The translations under genes were made by a program, and so were the position numbers. DNA of 23,138 bases from a virus. Positions 2,629 through 20,869 of this stretch are shown here, one piece after another. Location of the stretch: positions 1-23,138 of the IMG/VR virus record IMGVR_UViG_3300027659_000215; one strand, written 5' to 3'. The notes beneath the pieces were generated by a model, which had not been told where the DNA came from, did not search any database, and saw nothing but the letters and a program-made list of their open reading frames with translations. The first letter of the stretch is position 1. The number at the start of each line of letters is the position of its first letter.

Positions 2629-3534
2629 ATGAATACAAGCATCTCCTTCGATAAAGCCTCTTCTAAGTTCGTCTGTAACATTGATGGCACTACCTTCAAG
2701 ACTTCCAAGAAAGACTACATCGAGTACATGTACAAGAAAATCACTGGTGTGAAAAAGACTTTCAACGAAATCACTGGCACCATCACGGAAGTCAAGTCGG
2801 ATCGCTTCTGCATCAACCAACGCTTCAGCTTTGTTGAGAAGCTCATCAACATGGTAGCTTCTGGTGTACAACCCTCGGCTGTTATCACCGGTCAAGGTGG
2901 CCTTGGCAAAACCTACACGGTCACCAAGACTCTTGTCAACGCTGGCTACAAAGATGCTTCTACACTGGCTGACTTCCAAGTTGGTCAAGTTGTTCAACGC
3001 TCAAAGTTGTTTGTGACTATCAAAGGTTACTCTACCGCTAAGGGTTTGTTCCGGACTCTCTTCGAGAACAACGGTTCGGTTATCGTGTTTGATGATTGTG
3101 ACTCGGTGCTCAAAGACCCAGTTGCTCTGAACCTGCTTAAAGGTGCTCTGGACTCCTACGGCAAGCGTATCATCTCTTGGAATGCAGACATGAAGGATGA
3201 AGATCTGCCACGTAGCTTTGACTTCACTGGCAAGGTGGTGTTCATCTCTAACAAGGCTCAGAACGAAATCGATCAAGCCATCCGCTCACGTAGCATGATG
3301 ATCGACCTTGCAATGACTCTGGACCAGAAGATCGATCGTATGGACTTCATTTCTAAGTCTGCCGAGTTCATGCCTGAGTACAGCATGGAAGTCAAGCAGG
3401 ATGCTATGAACCTCATCCGCGAACTAAAGGATGACGCTAAGGAAATCAGCCTTCGCACTCTGATCTCGGTCTCTAAGATCCGCGCCTCTAACAAGGACTG
3501 GAAAGACTTGGCCGAATACATGTTGGTTGCTTAA
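2629..3534 (+). CDS. AAA+ family ATPase
   Basis: The 301-residue product has a Walker A motif GQGGLGKT at residues 88-95, a Walker B VIVFDDCD at 151-158, a sensor-1-like VVFISN at 203-208, and Arg residues in AIRSRS (219-222) that could serve as arginine finger. Residues 1-80 form an N-terminal segment that includes a lysine-rich helix. AAA+ ATPases of this size are frequent in large phages and act in remodelling of DNA-protein complexes, but I cannot assign it to a specific replication factor. It is the largest gene of the early region and has its own promoter. The ribosome binding site before ATG 2629 is weak (AAGCAAAG). Genes at 3551, 3764 and 4018 follow without promoters and are likely cotranscribed. 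Confidence 0.9.
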   Translation: MNTSISFDKASSKFVCNIDGTTFKTSKKDYIEYMYKKITGVKKTFNEITGTITEVKSDRFCINQRFSFVEKLINMVASGVQPSAVITGQGGLGKTYTVTKTLVNAGYKDASTLADFQVGQVVQRSKLFVTIKGYSTAKGLFRTLFENNGSVIVFDDCDSVLKDPVALNLLKGALDSYGKRIISWNADMKDEDLPRSFDFTGKVVFISNKAQNEIDQAIRSRSMMIDLAMTLDQKIDRMDFISKSAEFMPEYSMEVKQDAMNLIRELKDDAKEISLRTLISVSKIRASNKDWKDLAEYMLVA

Positions 3535-7492: not shown

Positions 7493-7669
7493 ATGAAAAA
7501 TGATTGGGATACACAAGAACAGTCAGATATGTTTGACGAGTTTCTCGAAGACACATCGGATTCAAGGACGCGCACCTGGACACTGTCTTATGGTTACGAT
7601 GAACTAGAATGGGAAGCATTTCAGTATGGATGGAATGCAGCAAAGAAACACTTTAGAGTAGAACTATGA
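7493..7669 (+). CDS. Hypothetical acidic protein, 58 aa
   Basis: ATG 7493 follows AAGGAC near the end of the upstream gene. The product has an acidic N-terminus (DTQEQSDMFDEFLED) and a C-terminal ELEWEAFQYGWNAAKKHFRV segment. The E..AFQ.GWNAAK pattern is common in small phage proteins of unknown role. Its end overlaps the next ATG (ATGA). Confidence 0.62.
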   Translation: MKNDWDTQEQSDMFDEFLEDTSDSRTRTWTLSYGYDELEWEAFQYGWNAAKKHFRVEL

Positions 7670-7761
7670 GTTTCTTTTGGGGATTAATATTGGGGTTTGT
7701 CATAGGCGTGTTCTATATGGCGGATCGATCAAACGTAGATAAAAGAACAGAGACAGAATGA
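7666..7761 (+). CDS. 31-aa single-pass membrane microprotein
   Basis: The gene overlaps both neighbours as ATGA. The product is a hydrophobic helix (SFFWGLILGFVIGVFYMA) followed by a charged tail (DRSNVDKRTETE). The GLI.GFVI core is shared with the 24-residue protein at 7214. Orientation with the tail in the cytoplasm or periplasm cannot be told. Confidence 0.55.
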   Translation: MSFFWGLILGFVIGVFYMADRSNVDKRTETE

Positions 7762-8183
7762 AACTATTTTTAGACACAGAGTTTAATGGCTTTGGTGGGC
7801 GGCTTATGTCTATGGCCCTAGTACCAGAGTATGATCGGATTCGCGCATGGTATTGTGAGCTGAATATGAATGACCAGCTAGATCCGTGGGTCAGGGAGAA
7901 TGTAGTACCGCATATGATTCTGGTACCTTCCAGCCGCTCACAGTTTCAGAGTAGCTTGTCTTCATATCTTTTGCAGTTTAATGAGGTTACTATTGTCGCT
8001 GACTGGCCGGATGACATACGGCACTTTTGCGAATCGTTGATTACTGGTCCAGGAGAACGTATCAGCATTCCCACCGTGATCAAGTTTGAACTGGACCTGA
8101 GCATCGAGTACGAATCCACAGTACCGCATCATGCATACCACGATGCTGTCGGTATACGGGAATACTACAGGAATATAAAATGA
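7758..8183 (+). CDS. 3'-5' exoribonuclease, Rv2179c-like (DEDDh)
   Basis: The N-terminus LFLDTEFNGFGGRLMSMALV carries the first exonuclease motif (D6, E8), and the C-terminal HHAYHDAVGIREYYRNI carries the His/Asp motif of DEDDh nucleases. The central DPWVRENVVPH block is typical of the Rv2179c-like family, whose founding member is a mycobacterial 3'-5' exoribonuclease. The length of 141 residues is somewhat short for the fold. It may act in RNA turnover during infection. It lies in the operon of small proteins begun at 6358. Confidence 0.8.
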   Translation: MKLFLDTEFNGFGGRLMSMALVPEYDRIRAWYCELNMNDQLDPWVRENVVPHMILVPSSRSQFQSSLSSYLLQFNEVTIVADWPDDIRHFCESLITGPGERISIPTVIKFELDLSIEYESTVPHHAYHDAVGIREYYRNIK

Positions 8184-8335
8184 GCGATTATGATATGTCA
8201 GAACAGATTTTGATCGAGCAAAAAATTGCACTGCTGGAAGAATTGCTTAGTACCTTTGGTACTACAAGTTCGATGCGTGCCGATCTGAACGAAAGTCTAA
8301 AATTAGCTCGTGAGAAGCTACAAAACCTAAAATAA
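8180..8335 (+). CDS. Hypothetical coiled-coil protein, 51 aa
   Basis: It begins in an ATGA overlap with the exonuclease gene. The product is almost entirely helical: EQILIEQKIALLEELLSTFG, then MRADLNESLKLAREKLQNLK, two helices with heptad-like Leu/Ile spacing separated by a Gly-Thr turn. It may bind the exonuclease encoded just upstream, but this is only a neighbour argument. It is the last gene before the promoter at 8339. Confidence 0.62.
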   Translation: MSDYDMSEQILIEQKIALLEELLSTFGTTSSMRADLNESLKLAREKLQNLK

Positions 8336-8338
8336 CGG

Positions 8339-8367
8339 TGTACATTAAATCGTCTATTTGATATAAT
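8339..8367 (+). promoter_or_regulatory. Early-type promoter
   Basis: TGTACA 8339-8344, spacer TTAAATCGTCTATTTGA, TATAAT 8362-8367, ACGG upstream. The base before the -10 makes TGA instead of the usual TGT or TGG. It drives the genes from 8394 to 9258. Confidence 0.85.
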
Positions 8368-8393
8368 AGATCCATACCAACCAAGGAACTAGA

Positions 8394-8549
8394 ATGAACG
8401 AAGATAAACTAAAAGAGTTACGTGAACGGGCCGCGCTCATCCTTAGCACCAATGCACATTGGAAATCCTGTCAGGATGGAAGCTACGAAATGGCTTTGGA
8501 CTATGCTGGGTACTACACCCTTCTAGATGAAATCAATAAACTGAAATGA
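8394..8549 (+). CDS. Hypothetical protein, 51 aa, helical
   Basis: ATG 8394 follows AAGGAAC. The product is helical: EDKLKELRERAALILSTNAH, then ALDYAGYYTLLDEINKLK. It resembles short phage proteins of the NE.I.EL.E.A type. It ends in an ATGA overlap with the next gene. Confidence 0.62.
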   Translation: MNEDKLKELRERAALILSTNAHWKSCQDGSYEMALDYAGYYTLLDEINKLK

Positions 8550-8836
8550 AACAAGACTACACACTGTATATCTACAAACGTGATGCTCGTTGCAAAACAG
8601 GTGAGCGTTTGTATTCCACCTCCGTTTGGAGAGATCGTGATCAAGCGAGTATGGACCGCGAGGTGCTAGACTTGTCACACACCTTGTATCGCGTTGGTGC
8701 AGGCAACGGATGGCGCTTTGAATATGTGCCTACAATGAAAACTGTGCGAAACTTGATGAGCGGAAAAGATGTGCAAATCCCGCATGACACTCCACGTTCA
8801 TGTGATCCTTCTTCTGAAACTTATTGGAGCATGTGA
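8546..8836 (+). CDS. Conserved phage protein, 96 aa
   Basis: The product has DYTLYIYKRDARCKTGERLY, then DRDQASMDREVLDLSHTLY, a TMKTVRNLMSGKDVQI segment and a C-terminal CDPSSETYWSM. I recognise this set of motifs as a widespread small phage family without known function. The terminal CDPSSETYWSM is especially characteristic. It lies between overlapping or near-overlapping neighbours. Confidence 0.75.
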   Translation: MKQDYTLYIYKRDARCKTGERLYSTSVWRDRDQASMDREVLDLSHTLYRVGAGNGWRFEYVPTMKTVRNLMSGKDVQIPHDTPRSCDPSSETYWSM

Positions 8837-8837
8837 A

Positions 8838-8990
8838 ATGACTGAAGAACATAGTGATTATCTAAACGCTCTCCGAGATTCTGGAGTTACGAACATGTTT
8901 GGAGCAGGTGCTTATTTGCAGTCTCATTTTGGAATTACGCGCGCAGCTGCAAGAGCAATTCTACTGGAATGGATGAAGAGCTTTGATTAA
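8838..8990 (+). CDS. Conserved phage protein, 50 aa
   Basis: The frame is open from 8769, but ATG 8838, just after the upstream stop, is the natural start. The product contains EHSDYLNALRDSGVTNMFGA, then YLQSHFGITRAAARAILLEW. The LR.SG.TNMFGA..YL...FG pattern is a familiar compact helical domain of bacteria and phages, of unknown role. The next gene starts inside its last codons. Confidence 0.75.
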   Translation: MTEEHSDYLNALRDSGVTNMFGAGAYLQSHFGITRAAARAILLEWMKSFD

Positions 8991-9258
8991 TCTAAATTTA
9001 TCCGTTAGCTATCCGTTCAGTGATCGTTTTAAAATCTTAGCATCAACTTCTGGTATACTGACTAAGCATAAAGCGATTGAAGCAAACGCATATCGCACGA
9101 CAACTATTATTAAATTGGCGTTGTCATACACAGTCAGAGGAGATCACGCTGGCCTGCACGCAGAATTTGGATTATTCGGGTATGAATGTGAATTGCGAAT
9201 TTATGACACTCGTCACTGGGATTACAAAGCACAAAAATTCGAAGTAGCCAGCAAATAA
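8983..9258 (+). CDS. Conserved phage protein with a TTG start, 91 aa
   Basis: No ATG or GTG is available near the N-terminus, and the recognisable sequence begins immediately (LNLSVSYPFSDRFKILASTS), so TTG 8983 is the likely start, with GAAGAG at 8974-8979 as a close ribosome binding site. Other conserved-looking blocks are RGDHAGLHAEFGLFGYE and YDTRHWDY. I recognise the family from other phages (SVS.P.SDRFK ... DHAG...E.GL.GY ... YDTRHW) but know no function. Confidence 0.72.
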   Translation: MINLNLSVSYPFSDRFKILASTSGILTKHKAIEANAYRTTTIIKLALSYTVRGDHAGLHAEFGLFGYECELRIYDTRHWDYKAQKFEVASK

Positions 9259-9261
9259 CGG

Positions 9262-9290
9262 TGTACATTAAATCATCTTTATGTTATAAT
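9262..9290 (+). promoter_or_regulatory. Early-type promoter
   Basis: TGTACA 9262-9267, spacer TTAAATCATCTTTATGT, TATAAT 9285-9290, ACGG upstream. It drives the overlapping run of genes from 9311 to 10653. Confidence 0.85.
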
Positions 9291-9310
9291 AGATCTACAA
9301 AGGATTAAAC

Positions 9311-9406
9311 ATGAAACAATTTCTCAAAGAACTCTTCCAAGCCTCTATCGTAGCATTTTTGTTTGGCTTCCCCTTCATTCTTTATTTTTACCAGATGAAA
9401 CCATGA
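9311..9406 (+). CDS. 31-aa membrane microprotein
   Basis: ATG 9311 lies 20 bp after the -10 box with AAAGGA just upstream. The product has an amphipathic start (KQFLKELFQASIV) running into a hydrophobic helix (AFLFGFPFILYFYQMKP). It overlaps the next gene as ATGA. It is shorter than most gene finders report. Confidence 0.58.
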   Translation: MKQFLKELFQASIVAFLFGFPFILYFYQMKP

Positions 9407-9609
9407 GCAAGAAACTAGAAATTGACGGTGAAGTTGCCGATCGTATCACGTTACTGAATTTGATGGACTATCGCAAGTATCTGAAAGATGAATTGAAGGC
9501 TTTTAAGAAAGGCGCGTACTTACACGACAACGATGTTGCGGGTAACATTAAGCGCATCGAAGCTCTTACACTTATTATTCGTGATTTTACAACTGGAGAT
9601 ACTGAATGA
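9403..9609 (+). CDS. Conserved phage protein, 68 aa, helical
   Basis: The product reads EVADRITLLNLMDYRKYLKD, then KKGAYLHDNDVAGNIKRIEA and LTLIIRDF. The D.ITL.NL.DYR.YL......KGAYLH..D pattern is one I recognise from many phage genomes. It is helical and may be a small regulatory or structural protein; no function is known to me. Both junctions are 4-bp overlaps. Confidence 0.75.
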   Translation: MSKKLEIDGEVADRITLLNLMDYRKYLKDELKAFKKGAYLHDNDVAGNIKRIEALTLIIRDFTTGDTE

Positions 9610-9782
9610 TTCTGATTCAATACTGGCCTCAATTTGCATACCTTGCTCTGCTCACTGTTGGTTTAGGTATGACACTACAACAACATGGTAAACCCAAGAC
9701 TGGTAACGAGAGCATTTGGATTTCGCTAACAGCTTCGAGTATTGCGCTATTTTTGCTTTATATGGGAGGGTTCTTCAAGTGA
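9606..9782 (+). CDS. Small membrane protein with two hydrophobic helices, 58 aa
   Basis: Two hydrophobic segments (residues about 8-24 and 38-57) flank a short polar loop (QQHGKPKTGNES). The size and topology are compatible with a small holin-like or generic phage membrane protein, but no lysis gene is seen next to it. It overlaps its neighbours as ATGA upstream and GTGA downstream. Confidence 0.68.
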   Translation: MILIQYWPQFAYLALLTVGLGMTLQQHGKPKTGNESIWISLTASSIALFLLYMGGFFK

Positions 9783-11466: not shown

Positions 11467-12489
11467 ATGGCACTACCTGCTTCTGGATCTTCAATATCAT
11501 TGGCTCAAATTCAAACTGAGTTCGGTGGATCAAATCCGATATCACTCAATGAATATTATGGTGGCACTACCAACGAAAGAAGTTATTTGCCATCTGGCTC
11601 CAGTTGGGCTTTAATACCCACTAGTGGTACTATTTCTTGTAATCAATTCTTTAGTGCTGCTGCTAGGAGAGCTGTAGGTCATGACGCTTATGCCACTGCT
11701 GTAAGTGCGTCGCTATATACTTTTGATGCTACTCATTCGAGAACAATTGGTATTATAGCTATTGGCGGCGGCGGCGGCGGAGGCGGAGGATCGTCGAGAT
11801 ATTATGGCTGGGGTACTGTTCAAGGTGGAGCTGGCGGCGGCGGAGGATCAATGTATGGCACAACAATAACTGTTACTCCTGGTCAACAGTTATACGTATA
11901 TGTTGGTGCAGGCGGGTCGCTTGGTGGTGCTCGAGATGGACCTTATAGTGCTGGCAGCAATGGTGGGAGTGGAGGTTATTCTGGAGCCTTAAACTCTGCA
12001 CAAAATGCTTGGCATGTCTTAGCATATGGTGGCGGAGGCGGGCAGGTAGCTACAGTTAATACCAGTATTAATAATCAAGCTGTGGGTGCAGCGGGAGGAT
12101 CTGGCGGTGTGGGGAGCCTTATAAGTCCCGGTAATGTTGGCGCTCATGGCCCATATACAACATCCGGCAAGAGTGTTGCTACACAAGGAGGTGGCACCGG
12201 TGGCGCTGGTGTATACTTTCATACTTTTGTTAGAGCTGGTACAGGCGGCGCTGCCTCGGCCGGGGGTGGTTTAACTCACTCAAATGCAAATGCTAATTCG
12301 CCCGGCTATGGATCATTTAATTGGCACGGTTTATCCGGCCAACTGGCTGGTCCAGCAACTAGTGGTTATACTAACTCTTATTATGGTATAGGTGGCGGTG
12401 GCGGTGGCGGTGGCATAAATGTTGCTGACAACGGTGGCGGCATGCAAGGCGGCGCCGGTCAGCCTGGCGCGCTTGTAATATTTTGGTGA
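11467..12489 (+). CDS. Glycine-rich tail fibre/adhesin, copy 1
   Basis: The 340-residue product begins ALPASGSSISLAQIQTEFGG, then NPISLNEYYGG and a second SGTIS..QFFS block (about residues 53-64), the N-terminal plan of many phage tail-tip and fibre proteins. The rest is Gly-rich, with runs of up to nine Gly (about 100-108) alternating with Ser/Asn/Ala and aromatic residues, and ends GQPGALVIFW. Such domains form polyglycine-type bundles in phage adhesins. It is expected at the tail fibre tip, binding the host surface. It has a TATAAATA promoter and a leader without a ribosome binding site. The next gene is a close paralog. Confidence 0.85.
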   Translation: MALPASGSSISLAQIQTEFGGSNPISLNEYYGGTTNERSYLPSGSSWALIPTSGTISCNQFFSAAARRAVGHDAYATAVSASLYTFDATHSRTIGIIAIGGGGGGGGGSSRYYGWGTVQGGAGGGGGSMYGTTITVTPGQQLYVYVGAGGSLGGARDGPYSAGSNGGSGGYSGALNSAQNAWHVLAYGGGGGQVATVNTSINNQAVGAAGGSGGVGSLISPGNVGAHGPYTTSGKSVATQGGGTGGAGVYFHTFVRAGTGGAASAGGGLTHSNANANSPGYGSFNWHGLSGQLAGPATSGYTNSYYGIGGGGGGGGINVADNGGGMQGGAGQPGALVIFW

Positions 12490-12552: not shown

Positions 12553-13608
12553 ATGACACTACCTGCTTCTGGATCTGCGATATCGTTCAGTCAATTTCAA
12601 GGTGAATTTGGTGGATCAAATCCAATATCGATTAGCGAATATTATCGCGGTACTACCGAGGCTAGTCCCATGATTGGAAGATATTATTCGCCCAACGGCG
12701 GCACATCTTGGGCTTTAATACCACTTAGTGGTACTATTGCTTGCTCTCAATTCTTTAGTAGCGCTGCTAGGAGAGCTGTAGGTCATGACGCTTATGACAC
12801 TGCTAGATCTAATTTCCAATATACTTTTGATTCTAGTTATTCGGCTAGAATTGGTATTATAGCTATTGGCGGAGGCGGAGGCGGAGGTGGAGGCTCATCG
12901 AGATATTATGGCTGGGGTACTGTTCAGGGTGGAACTGGCGGAGGTGGAGGCTCAATGTATGGAGTATTGCTAGACATTACTCCTAGTGATGTCATATACG
13001 TATATGCTGGCTATGGCGGCGCCGCAGGTGGTGCTCGAGATGGACCTTATAGTAGTGGTAGCAATGGTGGAAGTGGAGGTTATTCTGGAGTCTTAAATGC
13101 TGCACGAAATGCTTGGCATGTCTTAGCATATGGAGGCGGTGGTGGTGAGGTAGCTTCAGTTAATACTGGTATTAATGTTCAAGCTGTAGGCGCCGCTGGC
13201 GGTCTGAGTGGTATCGGAGGCGCAATAAGTCCCGGTAATGTTGGCGCTCATGGCCCATATACGACAACCACCCAGGGCAAGTCTGTCGTCGTCCTTACAC
13301 AAGGAGGTGGCAGCGGCGGTGCCGGTGTATACTTTGGTCCCTTTGGTAGACCTGGTGGTGGTCCAACTTGGGGAACTTTTGGTTCGAATTTAACTCACTC
13401 AAATCCAAATGCTAATTCGCCCGGCTATGGAACATTTAATTGGCACGGTTTAGCTGGTCAGCTGGCAGGTCCAGCAGCTAGTGGTTATACTAACTCTTAT
13501 TATGGTATAGGTGGCGGTGGCGGTGGCGGTGGCATAAATGTTGCTGACAACAATTTAGCAATGAGTGGCGCTGCCGGTCAGCCAGGCGCGCTTGTAATAT
13601 TTTGGTAA
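12553..13608 (+). CDS. Glycine-rich tail fibre/adhesin, copy 2
   Basis: The 351-residue paralog of the preceding gene keeps the N-terminal plan (LPASGSAISFSQFQGEFGG, then NPISISEYYRG), the ARRAVGHDAY block, the long Gly run and the C-terminal GQPGALVIFW. It differs mainly by an insertion after the first EYY block and in the loops between Gly runs (for example YFGPFGRPGGGPTWG against YFHTFVRAGTGGAASAG), which would be the parts exposed to a receptor. Synonymous codon choice in the Gly runs also differs. The two copies may give the particle two specificities, or be alternatives. Confidence 0.85.
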   Translation: MTLPASGSAISFSQFQGEFGGSNPISISEYYRGTTEASPMIGRYYSPNGGTSWALIPLSGTIACSQFFSSAARRAVGHDAYDTARSNFQYTFDSSYSARIGIIAIGGGGGGGGGSSRYYGWGTVQGGTGGGGGSMYGVLLDITPSDVIYVYAGYGGAAGGARDGPYSSGSNGGSGGYSGVLNAARNAWHVLAYGGGGGEVASVNTGINVQAVGAAGGLSGIGGAISPGNVGAHGPYTTTTQGKSVVVLTQGGGSGGAGVYFGPFGRPGGGPTWGTFGSNLTHSNPNANSPGYGTFNWHGLAGQLAGPAASGYTNSYYGIGGGGGGGGINVADNNLAMSGAAGQPGALVIFW

Positions 13609-13629: not shown

Positions 13630-14031
13630 ATGTATAGTTATACTTCAAAAATTATTTATGTTAATAATGAACATAAATCTATGTTAGTCGAATACACTCC
13701 AGATATCAGTACTCCAGTTTTTATGGGGTTGACTACAGATGGTATAGAGAATGCTCCAATGCATGAAAGAGTACAGTTTCAAGTCACTCTAAACATTCCA
13801 TTTCCACTAGATGGTGTTGAATTGGCAGAGCATATAAAAATACACGCACCATTAATGACGTGGCAGCAACAAATTGAAAATTCTGTTAAAAAAAGAGATG
13901 TTGTATTTACAACAACACCAATTGAAGTTGGTGCTACAGTAAATATAGAGAATCAAGAATTAAAACTATTTGAAATAGATCCAGATCAAATACCAAACTG
14001 GGCAGAATTAGCAGAGTTACTTAAAAAGTAA
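13630..14031 (+). CDS. Hypothetical protein after the tail fibres, possibly a fibre chaperone
   Basis: ATG 13630 follows AGGA at 13619-13622. The 133-residue product begins with a strand-rich part (SKIIYVNNEHKSMLVEYTPD), then FQVTLNIPFPLDG and a helix, and ends with IPNWAELAELLKK. It has no Gly-rich repeats. Its position directly after the fibre genes suggests a fibre assembly helper or a minor tail protein, but no family is recognised and this is a neighbour argument only. Its codon use is already AT-rich. Confidence 0.7.
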   Translation: MYSYTSKIIYVNNEHKSMLVEYTPDISTPVFMGLTTDGIENAPMHERVQFQVTLNIPFPLDGVELAEHIKIHAPLMTWQQQIENSVKKRDVVFTTTPIEVGATVNIENQELKLFEIDPDQIPNWAELAELLKK

Positions 14032-14061
14032 ATAATGTATTATTTAAATAATGTATTATTT
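14030..14061 (+). repeat. Perfect 16-bp tandem repeat over a start codon
   Basis: AAATAATGTATTATTT occurs at 14030-14045 and again at 14046-14061. The second copy contains the ATG (14051) of the first PP-loop gene, and the first contains a second ATG (14035) whose frame stops after nine residues. The repeat is at the left edge of the AT-rich operon. Confidence 0.8.
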
Positions 14062-15115
14062 TAGTAATGGAACCAACTTTGCATCTAAAATAGAAGCAAT
14101 AGAATATAATTTAAAATCTAAATTACTTCCAAGATTTTATTATTTTGATGACATATATGATAAAGTAAATTGGAAAATAGAACCTCCAGAAAATTTAAGT
14201 TATTATTATCTTCAACAAGCTATACGCCTTCGTGAAAAATATGATTATATAATATTATGTTATAGTGGTGGATATGATTCAACTCATATGTTAGAAACAT
14301 TTGCATTAAATAATATAAAAATAGATAAGATTATTACAGTTGGTGCTGTAAGTCAAGATTCATCTGAGAATGATGATTCCAATGCAAATGGCGAATTATA
14401 TCATAATGCTATACCGTATATAAAAGAACTTGGTTTAGAATCAATATACGAAATATTTGATTATACTAAATATTTCGATAGTTCTAAAAATTTTTCAGTA
14501 TCTCAATATTCGACTGATTGGACTAGTTATATGTCTGTGGGCTGTAGTCCTCATACATTTTTTTGGAAAGATCTGGAAAAATATGTAATCAATGAATCTT
14601 GGCGAGATAAAAAAACCGCACTACTTTTTGGTAGAGATAGACCAACTTATAATTTTTCTCTATATCCTCCATACGAGCGATGTTTTAATTTTGTAGATTC
14701 TATAGTAACAACTTTGGGAAATTCATTTGGTAATGAATATTGTGATAGAGTGAATTTTTATTGGGATCCATATTTCCCAGAAATCTTATTAAAACAATTA
14801 CATATTCTTAATAGAATTTATACTCATTATAAAACAACTAAAAATGAATCACCAATTTATGTAAATGGAAATTTACATGAGTTAATAATGAATCGTCCAA
14901 TGCATGAATTAATATATGATATAAAAAGACCTTTAATTCACAAATCGCCAAAATCAAAGAATCTTGTACTTAGTGTAAGAGATTCGTTTTTTAATAAAAA
15001 ACATAATTCTGAAATATTTAATTTCTATAAAGATGGTATTAAAGCAGTACAAAATAAAATTAATTTAAATAGTATTGTTAAGCCTACACTTTCAAGAAAT
15101 TATACGATAACATAA
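14051..15115 (+). CDS. PP-loop ATP-pyrophosphatase-like protein, paralog A
   Basis: Residues 66-80 read YIILCYSGGYDSTHM, with the PP-loop SGGYDS at 72-77 that binds ATP and releases pyrophosphate in N-type ATP pyrophosphatases (asparagine synthetase, QueC, PAPS reductase and relatives). Upstream, residues 50-65 carry a YYLQQAIRLREKYD helix. Later blocks LLFGRDRPTYNFS and NFYWDPYFPEILLKQLH also occur in the 414-residue protein at 17989, so the two are paralogs over most of their length. No glutaminase domain is present. The expected reaction is adenylation of a carboxylate or carbonyl substrate, followed by amide, thio or nitrile formation; the substrate is unknown. It overlaps the next gene as TAATG. 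Confidence 0.75.
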   Translation: MYYFSNGTNFASKIEAIEYNLKSKLLPRFYYFDDIYDKVNWKIEPPENLSYYYLQQAIRLREKYDYIILCYSGGYDSTHMLETFALNNIKIDKIITVGAVSQDSSENDDSNANGELYHNAIPYIKELGLESIYEIFDYTKYFDSSKNFSVSQYSTDWTSYMSVGCSPHTFFWKDLEKYVINESWRDKKTALLFGRDRPTYNFSLYPPYERCFNFVDSIVTTLGNSFGNEYCDRVNFYWDPYFPEILLKQLHILNRIYTHYKTTKNESPIYVNGNLHELIMNRPMHELIYDIKRPLIHKSPKSKNLVLSVRDSFFNKKHNSEIFNFYKDGIKAVQNKINLNSIVKPTLSRNYTIT

Positions 15116-15906
15116 TGATAACTAAAAATGATTGGTTTACATGTAAATTAGATTCAGTAGATTTTATACCGCATATACAACCATATAACTTTAATAAACT
15201 TGATTTTAATATTGCGTGTGAATATACAGCCAAAGAATTACATAAAAAGTATTCAACTATTTACGTAGCATATAGTGGAGGCCTTGATTCGGAATATATA
15301 GTAAGAACTTTTCATAGATTATCTATTCCTATAATTCCCATAATAGTTTCTTGCGGAAGCAAACATGAAAATAGTTTTGCAATTAATACGTGTTTAGAAT
15401 TAAACATAGAACCAATTATAATTAATGTATCTGAAAAAGATTTGTTGATTAAGTTTTATAAATTTATATTTGAACCATTTAAAAGTATAGGGATTAATTA
15501 TACTCATGCGTTTTTTGCCGCTGATTATGTATTAGCAAATAAAAGTGGCGTATTAATTACTGGAAATAATCTATTAGATGAACACGCCAATACCAATGAC
15601 GATGCCAACATCAATGATTGGGATTTTACATTAGGATATTATAATTCTAAACTTACACAAATAGATTTCTTTTTATACGATATTAGTACCGCCTTTTCAA
15701 TGCTTCCAAATATAGAACCCTTGGATGCGATTAGTGTACAACAATACAAGTCATACATATACAACATTCCCTTCAGAACCAAAATTAGACCACTGTTTTC
15801 TAACTATTTCAATCAAATATATAGAACAATGGTAAAAACAACTCCACAAAAATCTGCATATTTTAATAAAAAATTTACTGATAGCATTATAGATAGGTAC
15901 ACATGA
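15115..15906 (+). CDS. PP-loop ATP-pyrophosphatase-like protein, short form
   Basis: Residues 47-60 read STIYVAYSGGLDSE, with the PP-loop SGGLDS at 54-59. A GVLITGNN block (about 144-151) and an acidic NTNDDAN segment follow. It is 263 residues, shorter than its neighbours, and lacks their N-terminal segment and the FYW.P block. It is most likely a second enzyme of the same superfamily with a different substrate or role. The start overlaps the stop of the upstream gene by 1 bp and its end overlaps the next start as ATGA, so translation is coupled. Confidence 0.72.
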   Translation: MITKNDWFTCKLDSVDFIPHIQPYNFNKLDFNIACEYTAKELHKKYSTIYVAYSGGLDSEYIVRTFHRLSIPIIPIIVSCGSKHENSFAINTCLELNIEPIIINVSEKDLLIKFYKFIFEPFKSIGINYTHAFFAADYVLANKSGVLITGNNLLDEHANTNDDANINDWDFTLGYYNSKLTQIDFFLYDISTAFSMLPNIEPLDAISVQQYKSYIYNIPFRTKIRPLFSNYFNQIYRTMVKTTPQKSAYFNKKFTDSIIDRYT

Positions 15907-16625
15907 AAAATATTATATTCTTAATTTTGTTGGTGTTTTCTTCATTTTCAGTTCTATGTAATACTATTCAACTTGTAGTGGCAGCTTCACCTGGAGGACC
16001 AGATGATACAATTGCACGAAAATTAGCATACAGAATAGAAAATAAAGATATTAATATTGTAATAATTAATAAGTCTGGTGCATCTCATTTGATTGGACAT
16101 AGTTATTTTTCTCAATCAAATAACCCAATATTGTTAATATCAAACAATGTTTCGTCGCTTAAAATACCAAATATAGAAGAGATATTTAATATTGGTTATT
16201 TTTCTATGTTTGTATATGTGAACAAAGATTCCAATATAGATAGTTTAGAAGATTTAATTGCACGATCTAACAAAAAAGAAATTATTTTTGGAAATAGTGG
16301 AATTGGCACTCACAGTTATAATGCAATGGAGAGTTTGTGTACTAGTAAAATTAAGTGTTTGCCAATTAATTTTAAATCTAGCGCTGAAACTATGATATCA
16401 TTGTCTGGAAATTTTATTGACGCAGCAGCGGTAGTATCCTATGGAGCAACTGCATTTTCAAATTATAAACAACTAAAAATGATACATGAAATTAAAGAAC
16501 GTCATTGGTACAAATTATTTGGCAAAAATATATCTGATTCTGATAAATTGATAATAATTAATGAGTTAAATAAATTAGATTCACAATTCTATAAAAGTTT
16601 AAATATTGAAAAATCTATAAAGTAA
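15903..16625 (+). CDS. Secreted Bug/TctC-like binding protein, short
   Basis: A hydrophobic signal peptide (residues 2-18, KNIIFLILLVFSSFSVL) is followed by TIQLVVAASPGGPDDTIARKL, which matches the N-terminal strand and GGP.D..AR motif of Bug/TctC receptors of tripartite tricarboxylate transporters. GNSGIGTHSYNAMESLC (about 137-153) matches the family's second substrate-contacting loop. At 240 residues it is shorter than the usual 300 or so, mainly at the C-terminus. It should be exported to the periplasm. No TctA/TctB membrane subunits are visible in the window, so it is either a host-acquired binding protein or one with a changed role. Confidence 0.75.
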   Translation: MKNIIFLILLVFSSFSVLCNTIQLVVAASPGGPDDTIARKLAYRIENKDINIVIINKSGASHLIGHSYFSQSNNPILLISNNVSSLKIPNIEEIFNIGYFSMFVYVNKDSNIDSLEDLIARSNKKEIIFGNSGIGTHSYNAMESLCTSKIKCLPINFKSSAETMISLSGNFIDAAAVVSYGATAFSNYKQLKMIHEIKERHWYKLFGKNISDSDKLIIINELNKLDSQFYKSLNIEKSIK

Positions 16626-16632
16626 TATTGAA

Positions 16633-17067
16633 ATGGCATTAGCTATCTTTATGATATGGACGTTATATTTGTATTTGTGGCATCGACTTGTACATAAAAC
16701 TCCAGTGATCAAAAATTTTCACAGACATCACCACGTCTTCATTTTAAACAATCACACGTCTTGGAAATGGAATAATTTGTTTTTGTACAATGATGACATT
16801 ATAGGAACTGTTGATCTTTGGATTACAGATGTTTTACCCACAATACTGTTTTGCTTTATTTTTGATTCGTGGTATATTTTATTATTTTATTGGTGTTGGG
16901 CTGCGTTTTTACAAGAAAGGTTAGAACATAATCAAAATGTAAATTTTATTGGATTTACATTTGGTAAATGGCACTTGGAGCATCATCGAAATCCAAGTAA
17001 AAACTTTGGGTTATTTTTTCCCATTTGGGATAAGATTTTTAAAACAGAATCTATGAAATTAAATTAA
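16633..17067 (+). CDS. Membrane di-iron hydroxylase, fatty acid hydroxylase/sterol desaturase-like
   Basis: Histidine motifs of the superfamily are present in order: H17-RLV-H21, H30-R-HHH34 (HxxHH), and H114-LEHH118, followed by NFGLFFPIWDKIFKTE, a typical C-terminus of these enzymes (NFG....IWD..FGT). Two or three hydrophobic segments lie at about residues 2-15 and 68-92. At 144 residues it is short but keeps every motif. Known members hydroxylate or desaturate lipids, sterols or carotenoids with O2 at a membrane. The start follows the upstream stop by 7 bp with no clear ribosome binding site. Confidence 0.8.
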   Translation: MALAIFMIWTLYLYLWHRLVHKTPVIKNFHRHHHVFILNNHTSWKWNNLFLYNDDIIGTVDLWITDVLPTILFCFIFDSWYILLFYWCWAAFLQERLEHNQNVNFIGFTFGKWHLEHHRNPSKNFGLFFPIWDKIFKTESMKLN

Positions 17068-17081
17068 TATTGAAAGTAAAT

Positions 17082-17984
17082 ATGAAAAAATTATTTGTGT
17101 GTTGTGTGTTTATGTTAGCTAGTGTTTTTGCCAATGCAGAAATACCTCAAAAAATAAAAGTGTATGTTCCGTTGTTATCAATCATGCCTTTATGTACGAG
17201 TTTAGTAGAAGAGTATAATAAAATATATAATTCGTCTGCTATAATAGTGTATAAACCCGGTGCTGGAGGACTTTTGGCACTTCAAGAAGCTATACAAGAA
17301 AAAGATTTTTTAATAGTTTGTGGCAGCGGCGCTACAGACGCAGTTTTATATAAAGTTAATGTTCCAGAAACGTTTCATAGTGTATATCAGCAAATACAAA
17401 CTATTAACATTATGACTTTTACTGGCATATATTATATTACTGGAAATAATAATCAACACACAACATTAAAAGGTCTACTTAATTCTAGTACTGCTAATAA
17501 ACCTATAACTATTGGATTTGAAGGACTTGGATCTAAACTTATTGCTGGTAAGATTATTGGAAAAACACCAGTTATATGGGTTCAATATAAGTCAGCAGCA
17601 GATGCAGCTTCATCACTTGTTACAAATGATTTGGATTTATTTATTGGTGGTTTCAGTCCATTGCTCGGATTAGCAGAAAATAATAAACTAAAAATACTCG
17701 GCCATATTAACGTAGATACTGCTGCTGCCAATGCTATTGGTCCAAATTTGGCCGCTGATTATCCAGAGGCTTCTGGCGTAGCAAATTTTTTAAGTATTTC
17801 ATCTTTAAGGAAATATGCAAAAGAAGATTTAGAAGAAATGAATAAAAGAATTAGTGTCATTTTATCTATTAAAGAAGTAAGAGAAAACTTTGCTAAAGCT
17901 AATTATACTATGATCAATCCAATGAGTATTGAAAAAATAAATCAACATTTACTAAAATATAATAGTCTATTAATTCAGAAATAA
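17082..17984 (+). CDS. Secreted Bug/TctC-like binding protein, full length
   Basis: The frame is open from TTG 17070, but GAAAG at 17072-17076 favours ATG 17082, which also puts the basic Lys pair at the start of a signal peptide (KKLFVCCVFMLASVFANA, cleavage expected after ANA). The mature part has KIKVYVPLLS, KPGAGGLLALQEAIQ (like the N-pGA-G segment of the family) and a long alpha/beta body with GFEGLGSKLIAG in place of the G.SG.GS loop. Length of 300 matches Bug/TctC receptors. The usual GGP.D motif near the N-terminus is missing, so its ligand may differ. It is more diverged than the shorter copy at 15903. Confidence 0.68.
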   Translation: MKKLFVCCVFMLASVFANAEIPQKIKVYVPLLSIMPLCTSLVEEYNKIYNSSAIIVYKPGAGGLLALQEAIQEKDFLIVCGSGATDAVLYKVNVPETFHSVYQQIQTINIMTFTGIYYITGNNNQHTTLKGLLNSSTANKPITIGFEGLGSKLIAGKIIGKTPVIWVQYKSAADAASSLVTNDLDLFIGGFSPLLGLAENNKLKILGHINVDTAAANAIGPNLAADYPEASGVANFLSISSLRKYAKEDLEEMNKRISVILSIKEVRENFAKANYTMINPMSIEKINQHLLKYNSLLIQK

Positions 17985-17988
17985 ACGT

Positions 17989-19233
17989 ATGCAAAATGGC
18001 GTTTATCATGTAAATAATTTAACTTTTAATAATAAAGTTGATGCTCTTATATATGCAAGTACCTGTGAAAAAAACACTATTGTCCATTGGAGTTTTTATG
18101 ACGAAGTGTTTTCACAAATAGATTGGAAAGTTCCTGTCACTGAGACCTTATCAGATTTATATAAGAAGCGAGCTATTCAGTTAAGAGAAAAATACGACCA
18201 TTTAGTATTATCTTATAGTGGAGGTGCCGACAGCACGAATATACTACAAACATTTATTAAAAATAATATATTGCTAGACGAAATTGTAATACTTAAGCCT
18301 ACTAATAATTTTGCTAATTCGCTTTGGGAAGAATGTGATATTGCAGCAATACCATATTTAAAACAATATTTAAAAAATTCTGCAACAAAAGTTCGCGTTA
18401 TTAATATATCAGATTATGTTAACACTTTTTTCGAAAATAATCTAGATACAGATTATAATACACTGAATTGGTTATCACCTAGTTCTATGTATATGTCATC
18501 TCTCATTGCTCATGATGAATTTTGGAATTCACTATACATAAAAAATAAGAAAATAGCTTTTATAGTTGGTATAGATAAACCAAGAATAGAATTAGATGCT
18601 AAAGATAATTTTTCTTGTTCTTTTTTAGATAGTATGGCCGGTGTAAATCAAAATTTATCGTGGCCATTAAGTAAAGATAAACTAACTTATTCTGATGAAA
18701 ATTTCACTTTTGAATATTTTTATTGGACTCCAGATGTGCCTTTATTAGTAGTAAAACAATGCCAACTGATAAAAGATGCTTGTTTGAAATTTAAACAAAT
18801 TAAAAAAATTATTGCTACTAATCAACCGCAAGTTCTATTATACAGAACAGTAATAAATTATATTATATACGAAGAAGATGTGACAGCGGTGCAAACCATG
18901 TATACCAATGAAAAATATACAGTGACTAATAATTCAATTACTAATGCTCCTCATAATAAGCATTTTTTTAAAGGACAATCATCTTATATTATAGGAAGAT
19001 ACTCAGATATGGTATTAAACACACATAAACATATAAATTCAAGATTTTTTCAGCCAGTCTTATACAATCAGCCAAAATTTTATATTCCTGTTGCAGATAA
19101 CTTTAAAACATTTTTTAACAAAGCTCTTAGTTCACAAATAGAGGATAATTTAAATCATAATAAAATTATAACTGATATTGATAAATTACCTTCTTCGTAC
19201 AAAATGATCATGTCAAGAAAATATAGTTTATGA
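17989..19233 (+). CDS. PP-loop ATP-pyrophosphatase-like protein, paralog C
   Basis: Residues 71-85 read HLVLSYSGGADSTNI with the PP-loop SGGADS at 77-82, preceded by RAIQLREKYD as in paralog A. Shared later blocks are VGIDKPRIEL, FEYFYWTPDVPLLVVKQCQL. It is 414 residues, about 60 longer than A, mainly at the C-terminus, which has no motif I recognise. The same type of ATP-dependent activation is expected. It lies 4 bp after the binding-protein gene and overlaps the dioxygenase-like gene as ATGA. Confidence 0.75.
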   Translation: MQNGVYHVNNLTFNNKVDALIYASTCEKNTIVHWSFYDEVFSQIDWKVPVTETLSDLYKKRAIQLREKYDHLVLSYSGGADSTNILQTFIKNNILLDEIVILKPTNNFANSLWEECDIAAIPYLKQYLKNSATKVRVINISDYVNTFFENNLDTDYNTLNWLSPSSMYMSSLIAHDEFWNSLYIKNKKIAFIVGIDKPRIELDAKDNFSCSFLDSMAGVNQNLSWPLSKDKLTYSDENFTFEYFYWTPDVPLLVVKQCQLIKDACLKFKQIKKIIATNQPQVLLYRTVINYIIYEEDVTAVQTMYTNEKYTVTNNSITNAPHNKHFFKGQSSYIIGRYSDMVLNTHKHINSRFFQPVLYNQPKFYIPVADNFKTFFNKALSSQIEDNLNHNKIITDIDKLPSSYKMIMSRKYSL

Positions 19234-19790
19234 TATTTTGGAAAAAAGTTGATATTAATGGTTATTTAGATTATAGAAGAGATATTTTAGTTTATCTAAA
19301 TACAAATTTCAAATGGAGGATTATTGATGGAATACCCCAGTTTTGGAATCCAGTTCCATTAATAGATGTTGATACGTATTTTAGTCAATTGACTACGTCA
19401 GTCATTCAATACGGTAGTATAAAAGAAGTTTCTGTATGTTTTTTAGTAAATGACAATTCTACTTTACACATAGATCACACTTGTGGATTAAACGCTGGAG
19501 TAAAAGCACGATTAAATATTCCATTACTTAATTGTGCTGGATCAATAACTGCATTTTATAGTTATAGCGATATTGTTAAATACCCACATACTACTAATGC
19601 TGGTGGAACTAAAACGTGGAATAATTTAGCAAGACTTCACTTAACTCCAGTTACTACCATAGAACTCAACCAACCAACAATATTGCGCACTAGTGAACCA
19701 CACACTGTTTTAAATAAGAATAATAAATACCCTAGAATATCACTAACTATTTCATTTGAAGAAGATGTAGTCAAATATTTGGAAAAATAA
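19230..19790 (+). CDS. 2-oxoglutarate/Fe(II)-dioxygenase-like protein
   Basis: Residues 78-83 are TLHIDH, giving the H80-x-D82 metal motif, followed by ARLNIPLLNCAGSITAFY (93-110), the strand pattern of aspartyl/asparaginyl hydroxylase-like and related dioxygenases. A distal His (H158 in EPHTVLNKN) and R169 in YPRISLTISF fit the second metal ligand and the 2-oxoglutarate-binding Arg. At 186 residues it is the size of a minimal double-stranded beta-helix domain. It probably hydroxylates a small molecule or protein side chain. It is the last gene of the AT-rich operon. Confidence 0.75.
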   Translation: MIFWKKVDINGYLDYRRDILVYLNTNFKWRIIDGIPQFWNPVPLIDVDTYFSQLTTSVIQYGSIKEVSVCFLVNDNSTLHIDHTCGLNAGVKARLNIPLLNCAGSITAFYSYSDIVKYPHTTNAGGTKTWNNLARLHLTPVTTIELNQPTILRTSEPHTVLNKNNKYPRISLTISFEEDVVKYLEK

Positions 19791-19802: not shown

Positions 19803-19831
19803 TGTACATTAATTCGTAATTGTGGTATAAT
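19803..19831 (+). promoter_or_regulatory. Early-type promoter
   Basis: TGTACA 19803-19808, spacer TTAATTCGTAATTGTGG, TATAAT 19826-19831. It marks the return of early-type transcription after the late region. Its spacer is identical to that of the promoter at 22378. Confidence 0.86.
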
Positions 19832-19855
19832 TGATCCATAACAGAAAGGATCGTG

Positions 19856-20869
19856 ATGAGAAAGTTAGCAACAATTCGTAAAATCGACGGCCTCACTCCC
19901 ATTGAAGGAGCTGATGCTATTGAGTGCGCTCACGTTGGTGGATGGAAGGTCGTAGTCAAAAAAGGTGAATACAACGCTGGTGATTTGGCTGTGTACATTG
20001 AGATCGACTCTTGGGTTCCTCACACTCTAGCTCCCTTCCTATCTAAGGGAAACTACCCACGCGTCTACAATGAAGTGGAAGGTGAACGCCTTCGCACGGT
20101 AAAACTGCGTGGTCAAGTTTCTCAAGGGTTGCTATTAAATCTTGACCACGCAATACCGGAAACACATTCGTTTGGTCCTGACGCAGATGTGTCTGAATAT
20201 CTTGGCATTCAAAAGTGGGAACCTCCTCTTGAATTCATGTCTTCAGACGCTAAAGGCGCTTTCCCTTCACAGATTCCAAAGACCGATCAAGAACGTATTC
20301 AGAATCTATCTGCTGAACTTGCTCAATGGAAGACTGAAGACCTCACTTGGGAAGTAACTGAAAAGCTTGAAGGCTCTTCAATGACTGCCTATCTAATTGA
20401 CGGTGAATTTGGAGTGTGTTCTCGTAACCTGAACCTAAAGCTTAATCCTGACGCTACATTTTGGAAGACTGCTATTGATGCAAAGCTTGAAGAAGCTCTG
20501 CGCAAATATGGCGACAATCTTGCAGTTCAAGGTGAACTTATCGGTGAAGGTATTCAAGGCAATATCTACAAGCTAAAGGGTACTCACTTCTACATCTACG
20601 ATATCTATGACATTGCAACTGGTAAGTACTTCGTTCCCGCTGTTCGCAGATTGTTTTGCGAGATGCATCATCTAAATCACTGCCCATCATTTGCTCATAA
20701 GTTTTTCCTAGATGATATCACTATTGACGAACTTCTTGCTAAAGCTGAAGGTAAGTCTGTAATGGGGCTTATTGGCTGCGAACGCGAAGGTTTAGTATAT
20801 AAATGCAACGAGAAGGAAGTTTCCTTCAAGGCAATTTCTAATCGCTATCTGTTAAAATCTAAGGATTGA
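19856..20869 (+). CDS. RNA ligase, DRB0094/Rnl5 type
   Basis: A GTG at 19853 is too close to AAAGGA (19845-19850), so ATG 19856 is chosen. The N-terminal 100 residues (RKLATIRKIDGLTPIEGADA, GDLAVYIEIDSWVP) form the OB-like domain of Deinococcus DRB0094-type RNA ligases. The nucleotidyltransferase part has motif I KLEGSS at 170-175 (Lys170 is the AMP-bearing residue), R190, E227 in GELIGEG, motif III HFYIYDIYD from 244, motif IV EGLVYK at 311-316 and motif V with K325. It seals RNA ends, including nicks in duplexes for the Deinococcus enzyme, and may repair RNAs cut by host defence. The length of 337 matches the family. Confidence 0.9.
   Translation: MRKLATIRKIDGLTPIEGADAIECAHVGGWKVVVKKGEYNAGDLAVYIEIDSWVPHTLAPFLSKGNYPRVYNEVEGERLRTVKLRGQVSQGLLLNLDHAIPETHSFGPDADVSEYLGIQKWEPPLEFMSSDAKGAFPSQIPKTDQERIQNLSAELAQWKTEDLTWEVTEKLEGSSMTAYLIDGEFGVCSRNLNLKLNPDATFWKTAIDAKLEEALRKYGDNLAVQGELIGEGIQGNIYKLKGTHFYIYDIYDIATGKYFVPAVRRLFCEMHHLNHCPSFAHKFFLDDITIDELLAKAEGKSVMGLIGCEREGLVYKCNEKEVSFKAISNRYLLKSKD

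Follow-up and report, generated by a model that had tools for sequence, protein, structure and literature searches.

Both tctA and a gene for a 2-oxoglutarate (2OG)-Fe(II) oxygenase have been reported from SUP05 viral contigs, where the role of tctA is called unknown (Roux et al. 2014, PMC4164917), and a 2019 review repeats this SUP05 listing (PMC6359870). Cyanophages encode in addition the phosphate receptor PstS, which is thought to raise host phosphate uptake during infection (PMC6359870). Here we describe a cassette of seven genes at positions 14051-19790 of the IMG/VR virus record IMGVR_UViG_3300027659_000215 (23,138 bases, classed as linear; the whole record is called the window below). 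It encodes three PP-loop proteins (PPL-A, PPL-B and the small PPs), two secreted solute-binding proteins of the TctC/Bug type, a membrane di-iron hydroxylase (FAH) and a putative 2OG oxygenase. The SUP05 contigs, which are marine and stem from uncultured viruses, share a TctA domain and a 2OG oxygenase with the cassette family; in the available part of that account, however, the genes are listed as separate putative auxiliary metabolic genes, and no PP-loop protein, TctC or cassette is described (PMC4164917). PstS is likewise a solute receptor that a phage supplies for a host transporter, whereas the receptors found here belong to another family and come with a set of enzymes. With the tripartite tricarboxylate transporter (TctA-TctB-TctC; Bug) the locus shares its TctC receptors, and part of the cassette family carries both TctA and TctC; the phage Tct genes are coupled to PP-loop genes, unlike those of two bacterial TctA loci examined (L134 and L135; L numbers denote the loci compared). 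The carbapenem and clavam pathways also place a PP-loop synthetase (CarA or BLS) beside an oxygenase, and CarA/BLS are among the weak fold matches of PPL, but no Ntn-type domain is present here and the fold similarity is weak. We take this parallel as a lead and not as a sign of membership. In the open-access literature we found no description of a phage cassette of PP-loop, TctC and oxygenase genes, in agreement with the original prediction, made from the sequence of the window alone, that no phage system of such make-up had been described. The cassette is real, widespread and apparently undescribed.

All seven open reading frames were confirmed at the predicted site, head to tail behind the fibre genes and as tightly spaced as had been claimed, with intergenic gaps in cassette order of -1, -4, +7, +2, +4 and -4 bp, where a start of the second Bug gene at ATG 17082, in place of TTG 17070, would turn the +2 into +14. 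The cassette begins 19 bp past the gene of a 133-aa protein, and 62 bp separate its end from the gene of an RNA ligase. The AT-richness noted in the prediction was reproduced exactly (26, 10 and 12 G+C per 60 nt at 3001, 14101 and 18001); overall the cassette has a GC content of 27.6% compared to 43.0% in the rest of the window, or 0.26-0.30 across 14-19.5 kb against 0.35-0.51 around it. Domain assignments were tested with Pfam, PHROGs and NCBIfam as well as with profiles rebuilt without the window proteins. Motifs, Pfam and these leave-out profiles uphold the calls as PP-loop proteins, two secreted Bug-like proteins and a membrane di-iron hydroxylase, and the profile evidence is solid for all three of the PP-loop proteins, for the first of the TctC-like proteins and for FAH.

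PPL-A as query retrieved a single relative, L002, whose comparable cassette follows a fibre-like gene rich in glycine and has the order PPL, Rieske oxygenase, PPs, 116-aa protein, radical SAM-SPASM protein, TctC and PPL. An alignment of both PPL paralogues then gathered 71 loci, TctA 55 and FAH the best 80 of 118, while the search with the small PP-loop protein gave six loci, including one already known and one second copy of the L002 contig. Other phage contigs from the environment, well above a hundred in number, carry the cassette with swapped parts. Many of the relatives are large contigs; a phage large terminase was found in 11 of 16 tested and PPL in all 16. After dereplication, to which all group counts refer, TctC or TctA lies within 3 kb of PPL in 27 of 46 PPL-first groups, 22 of the 46 have PPs, and no TctC/TctA gene of these loci is more than 4 kb away from a PPL. 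Where PPL and TctC/TctA are both present they are adjacent in 22 of 27 groups, whereas shuffling the gene order 2000 times gave 7.1 and at most 14. Starting from TctA, PPL was found within 5 kb in 33 of 40 viral groups and TctC within 500 bp in 36 of 40. PPL or PPs lies no more than 5 kb from FAH in 42 of 54 FAH-first groups; wherever any partner is present a PP-loop gene is included (42/42), and TctC never appears without PPL. FAH and PPs are directly adjacent in 30 of 46 groups, against 5.4 after shuffling (maximum 12). The searches begun from PPL, TctA and FAH agree on these linkages.

The gene maps show two recurrent pairs, PPL/TctC (often as TctA-TctC-PPL) and FAH/PPs, surrounded by varying companions: Rieske and radical SAM-SPASM proteins, 2OG oxygenases, TauD, AsnB, SHMT, a DegT aminotransferase, an ATP-grasp protein and desaturases; sulfotransferase-like and glycosyltransferase-like proteins were recognized in other cassettes by eye only. 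In 29 of 30 loci the GC content of the cassette is below that of its surroundings, and the order fibre gene, 133-aa-family protein, PPL recurs in other contigs. It is a solid result that the cassette is a modular set of conserved linkages in tailed phages that are often large, one example of which stands behind the fibre genes of the window. Such neighbourhoods, conserved across very diverged phages, bear out the prediction of a functional unit; of scattered single genes or a chimeric join, named beforehand as outcomes that would refute it, we found the opposite. The two core pairs, the TctA that some of the phages encode and the restriction of PPL, PPs and FAH to viruses in the sample searched go beyond what had been predicted. 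An unusually large cassette was observed in L074 (5246-13851), where DctP, a GARS-like ATP-grasp protein, two PPL, three PPs and a Rieske protein stand close together.

PPL was not found at E <= 1e-10 in 399 + 399 genomes (about 800 Pseudomonadota, sampled from the phylum and the order of a Rhizobacter metagenome-assembled genome, MAG), in a scan that detected 16 of 16 phage contigs used as positive control. PPs and FAH were absent from 398 genomes each of the same sampling, with no separate positive control for these two. The isolate phage collection gave no match to PPL, PPs or FAH; its TctA matches lie in a contig of a Salmonella genome, in short enteric records without annotation and in unverified faecal contigs, of which the three examined carried TctA and TctC and no PPL. 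Scans of genome contigs for a bacterial source yielded only one 9-kb PPL/TctA contig and two bacterial TctA loci without PPL. The 9-kb contig belongs to MAG TMED46 (L133, L136) and encodes TctA, TctC, an aminotransferase-like protein and PPL; by its gene content it is phage-like, and it was probably assigned to a bacterial MAG in binning. Together the searches support that PPL, PPs and FAH are virus-restricted within the Pseudomonadota genomes and isolate phages covered.

The PP-loop proteins share the SGGxDS motif and the HUP-type fold with known PP-loop synthetases and sulfurtransferases (NadE, QueC, AsnB/CarA/BLS, TilS, LarE, NcsA/TtuA). PPL-A (14051-15115, on the plus strand like all features given below with a strand) is a 354-aa PP-loop ATP-pyrophosphatase-like protein of clade A and the first cassette gene behind the fibre; PPs (15115-15906, plus) is a 263-aa small PP-loop protein with a NadE/NcsA/LarE-like fold, the partner of FAH in other phages; PPL-B (17989-19233, plus), with 414 aa, belongs to a group whose genes adjoin TctC. 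The three window proteins carry the motifs SGGYDS, SGGLDS and SGGADS, and across the set 142 of the 155 PPL of full length keep SGGxDS, as do all 43 PPs. The paralogues PPL-A and PPL-B are 29% identical (E 7e-27), the family profiles built without the window recover PPL-A, PPL-B and PPs at 4e-97, 1e-73 and 4e-64, and PPL and PPs have the PP-loop region in common (hhalign 96.6%). The HUP-like alpha/beta fold is clear for PPs and weaker for PPL. For PPs, the predicted structure (predicted local distance difference test score, pLDDT, 91) gave 173 PDB matches with E <= 1e-3, the top listed being PP-loop enzymes (NcsA/TtuA/NadE/LarE), and by sequence NAD synthetase is nearest (3p52, 3e-8). The prediction for PPL-A is also confident (pLDDT 92), and closest to it among solved structures come TilS, carbapenam synthetase, NcsA and LarE (best Foldseek E 1.9e-3, TM-score about 0.3); nearly all matches listed are PP-loop enzymes, though weak, and by sequence PPL is not NadE-like. 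Because it has no close solved structure and no convincing Pfam or PHROG family, with only weak matches of single or few members, we treat PPL as an undescribed PP-loop family.

PPL also differs from the known enzymes in having no conserved cysteine (best column 35%), while lysines are conserved. Sulfur transfer of the LarE/MnmA/TtuA type is therefore not favoured, as neither a catalytic nor an iron-sulfur cysteine is found in PPL; PPs has one conserved cysteine (92%), and NAD synthetase also has a cysteine at the aligned position. Modification of tRNA or DNA bases by a TilS-, NcsA- or QueC-like enzyme is likewise disfavoured, as a membrane hydroxylase and secreted receptors are present and partner enzymes are not; for the queuosine/7-deazaguanine pathway there is weak QueC similarity only and no QueD or QueE among the Pfam-scanned neighbours. 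In a FastTree phylogeny of 105 PPL proteins, in which some branches are long and the deep order is unsure, PPL-A and PPL-B sit in different groups: the PPL-A clade (26 rows, 100% support) has genes mostly adjoining PPs or others and not TctC, and the weaker PPL-B group (42 rows, 85% support) is rich in TctC neighbours. Adjacency to TctA is scattered over the tree, and PPL/TctC adjacency spans many deep branches.

Of the two receptors, TctC/Bug 1 (15903-16625, plus) is a predicted secreted solute-binding protein that keeps the SPGGPDD loop, the carboxylate-contacting loop in known Bugs, and matches Pfam TctC at 1.5e-5, slightly below the curated cut-off. TctC/Bug-like 2 (17070-17984, plus) is also predicted to be secreted and has lost the GG/D loop; both proteins start with signal-peptide-like N termini. 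A TctC profile built without the window copies finds Bug 1 at 1e-40 and Bug 2 at 1.6e-21, the second assignment being solid only by this phage-derived profile. The TctC family profile also hits carboxylate receptors of known structure (terephthalate-binding protein, Bug27, BugD), with values of 1e-49 to 1e-54, and known TctC proteins are mostly carboxylate binders for which the contacting loop has been described (PMC5812351). The cassette nearest to the second half of that in the window is L042, which holds both a relative of PPL-B (8492-9715, 68% identity), likewise beside TctC, and the same second Bug gene (7584-8486). Homologues of the TRAP receptor DctP occur near PPL in L035-L040 (part), L074 (5246-6190) and L127 (7299-8237), with Pfam values of 1e-49 for L074 and 2e-54 for L127; they start at the mature domain without a signal peptide and are apparently cytoplasmic. 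DctP as a substitute for TctC, though found near PPL in a few groups, was not used as evidence because the signal peptide is missing.

FAH (16633-17067, plus) is assigned to the fatty-acid-hydroxylase family of membrane di-iron hydroxylases (Pfam FA_hydroxylase, 8e-13), and its histidine boxes HX3H, HX2HH and HX2HH are intact and kept in all 16 homologues listed. Many other phage loci have membrane desaturases only a few kb from FAH/PPs, and a fatty-acid desaturase stands directly upstream of FAH in L144-L146, L148, L149 (PF00487), L152, L162 and L174. The last cassette gene (19230-19790, plus) encodes a 186-aa protein for which the original prediction of a 2OG dioxygenase stands at motif level only: the HxD...PH...R motif is present and conserved in a family of 107 phage members after iteration, including proteins beside FAH in other phages, and 63 members lie within 1.5 kb of PPL, PPs, FAH or Tct genes, but neither Pfam nor PHROGs gave a match and profile comparison with a second oxygenase-like family (alignment A8) gave no support. 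We refer to it as a putative 2OG-Fe(II)-type oxygenase.

The best explanation, which we put forward tentatively, is that the cassette couples organic-acid capture by TctC to PP-loop carboxylate activation and oxygenase tailoring. In the periplasm, the secreted TctC would pick up an organic acid and hand it over to TctA, a permease that some cassettes encode themselves and that would come from the host where, as in the window, the cassette lacks it. NadE, QueC, AsnB and CarA are PP-loop synthetases that activate carboxylates with ATP. Modelled on such synthetases without sulfur transfer, PPL and PPs would adenylate a carboxylate, releasing pyrophosphate, and couple it to ammonia or an amine; either the product or an acceptor in the membrane would be hydroxylated or desaturated by FAH and the other oxidative enzymes. 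Infection would be aided by the outcome, a small molecule or an envelope lipid that is oxidised and bears an amide. Since TctC proteins mostly bind carboxylates and PP-loop synthetases activate them, the PPL/TctC linkage is best read as acid uptake coupled to activation, and FAH and the frequent desaturases suggest that part of the work is done on a membrane or lipid-like substrate. The wording of the original prediction, ATP activation plus oxygenases with an exported arm, fits this gene content; its overall interpretation is partly supported.

Several observations weigh against coupled uptake and activation. TctC/TctA is absent in 19 of 46 PPL groups, some of which end at a contig edge, and the TctA query was built from PPL-linked TctA and may inflate the linkage figure, a bias towards TctC of which the PPL-first and FAH-first figures are free. 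No TctA is encoded among the cassette genes of the window, itself a fragment, and no TctB was found in 17 TctA-type phage contigs searched (TctA loci L078-L131), so that the pair of TctA and TctB membrane subunits of the tripartite transporter is not seen. The carboxylate loop is lost in the alignment of Bug 2, and PPL has no close structural relative, so that carboxylate activation is argued from membership of the superfamily only. Pairs of FAH and PPs also exist without PPL/TctC, and the cassette may therefore hold two separate pathways.

The membrane-bound FAH and the secreted receptors, placed behind adhesin-type fibre genes, could also serve envelope remodelling, in which Bug-like proteins and membrane oxidases would alter or block a surface component and so keep rival phages or the phage's own progeny from attaching to infected cells or their remains. 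In keeping with this, other cassettes contain desaturases and, by eye, genes resembling those of glycosyltransferases and sulfotransferases. Taken alone, however, it leaves TctA in 40 viral groups and three PP-loop enzymes unexplained, and the cassette sits among late genes whereas superinfection genes are usually early, so we consider it unlikely, if the most serious of the rivals. PADLOC matched none of eight proteins, and an anti-phage defence system was rejected. If TctC instead boosted host uptake of a carbon or vitamin source and the enzymes fed host metabolism, for example making NAD from pyridine acids, the cassette would have a precedent in phage-encoded pstS (PMC6359870); Bug27/Bug69 moreover bind quinolinate (PMC11452294) and the PPs profile is nearest to NAD synthetase. 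Yet no nadC/nadD-type gene was recognized among the neighbours scanned, the sequence of PPL does not resemble NadE, and the oxygenase, radical SAM and AsnB genes suggest synthesis over feeding; nutrient scavenging is in our view rather improbable.

In the window, as in several further phages, the cassette directly follows glycine-rich fibre genes and the gene of a small accessory protein, a position that would be explained if the enzymes hydroxylated the upstream fibre or ligated amides to it. A cytoplasmic fibre would be hard to reach for a secreted receptor and a membrane hydroxylase, though, and many TctA- or FAH-type cassettes have no recognized neighbouring fibre gene, which makes modification of the phage's own tail fibre very doubtful. 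The sharp drop in GC content, finally, might mark an AT-rich island of unrelated hitch-hikers or an assembly chimera without joint function. We give this hardly any credence: the same linkages and the same GC drop are found elsewhere (29/30 loci), the fibre-side junction recurs, and the gene-order shuffles exclude chance. On the grounds of recurrence and shuffles we reject a chimera or chance neighbourhood.

Upstream of the cassette two tandem, closely similar glycine-rich fibre genes (11467-12489, 340 aa; 12553-13608, 351 aa), the second of which matches Gly_rich_2 at 1e-5, suggest an adhesin duplication. The 133-aa protein (13630-14031, plus) belongs to a small-protein family sited between fibre gene and PPL-A in other phages; homologues at the same position are found in L027 (phmmer 5e-5) and L028 (2e-4), and it is probably a fibre accessory outside the enzyme set. 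Downstream, 19853-20869 encodes a DRB0094-type RNA ligase (TIGR02306, 1e-56) with nearest isolate matches in Synechococcus phage S-CREM1 and Limnohabitans phage DC31, and just upstream of it lies an extended -10-like site, TGTACA-17-TATAAT (19803-19831). The scan for promoter-like sites was uninformative on promoters, showing no excess (55 compared to 48.6 +/- 8.6 in shuffles), and no tRNA genes were found in the window.

Metabolic genes of phages are mostly read as single host-copied genes; here we find a recurrent multi-gene cassette, at whose core a PP-loop family without a Pfam or PHROGs model is coupled to transporter receptors, and which gives a context to the unexplained tctA of marine viral contigs. 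Read more conservatively, it adds a new type to the auxiliary metabolic cassettes of phages. It is also quite possible, and we say so with reserve, that it represents a phage-native pathway of virus-restricted enzyme families and not of borrowed host genes, in which phage transporter parts would import an organic acid to be turned into an oxidised amide or modified lipid, a diversified viral specialised metabolism. The testable question this raises is which compound these phages take up and modify.

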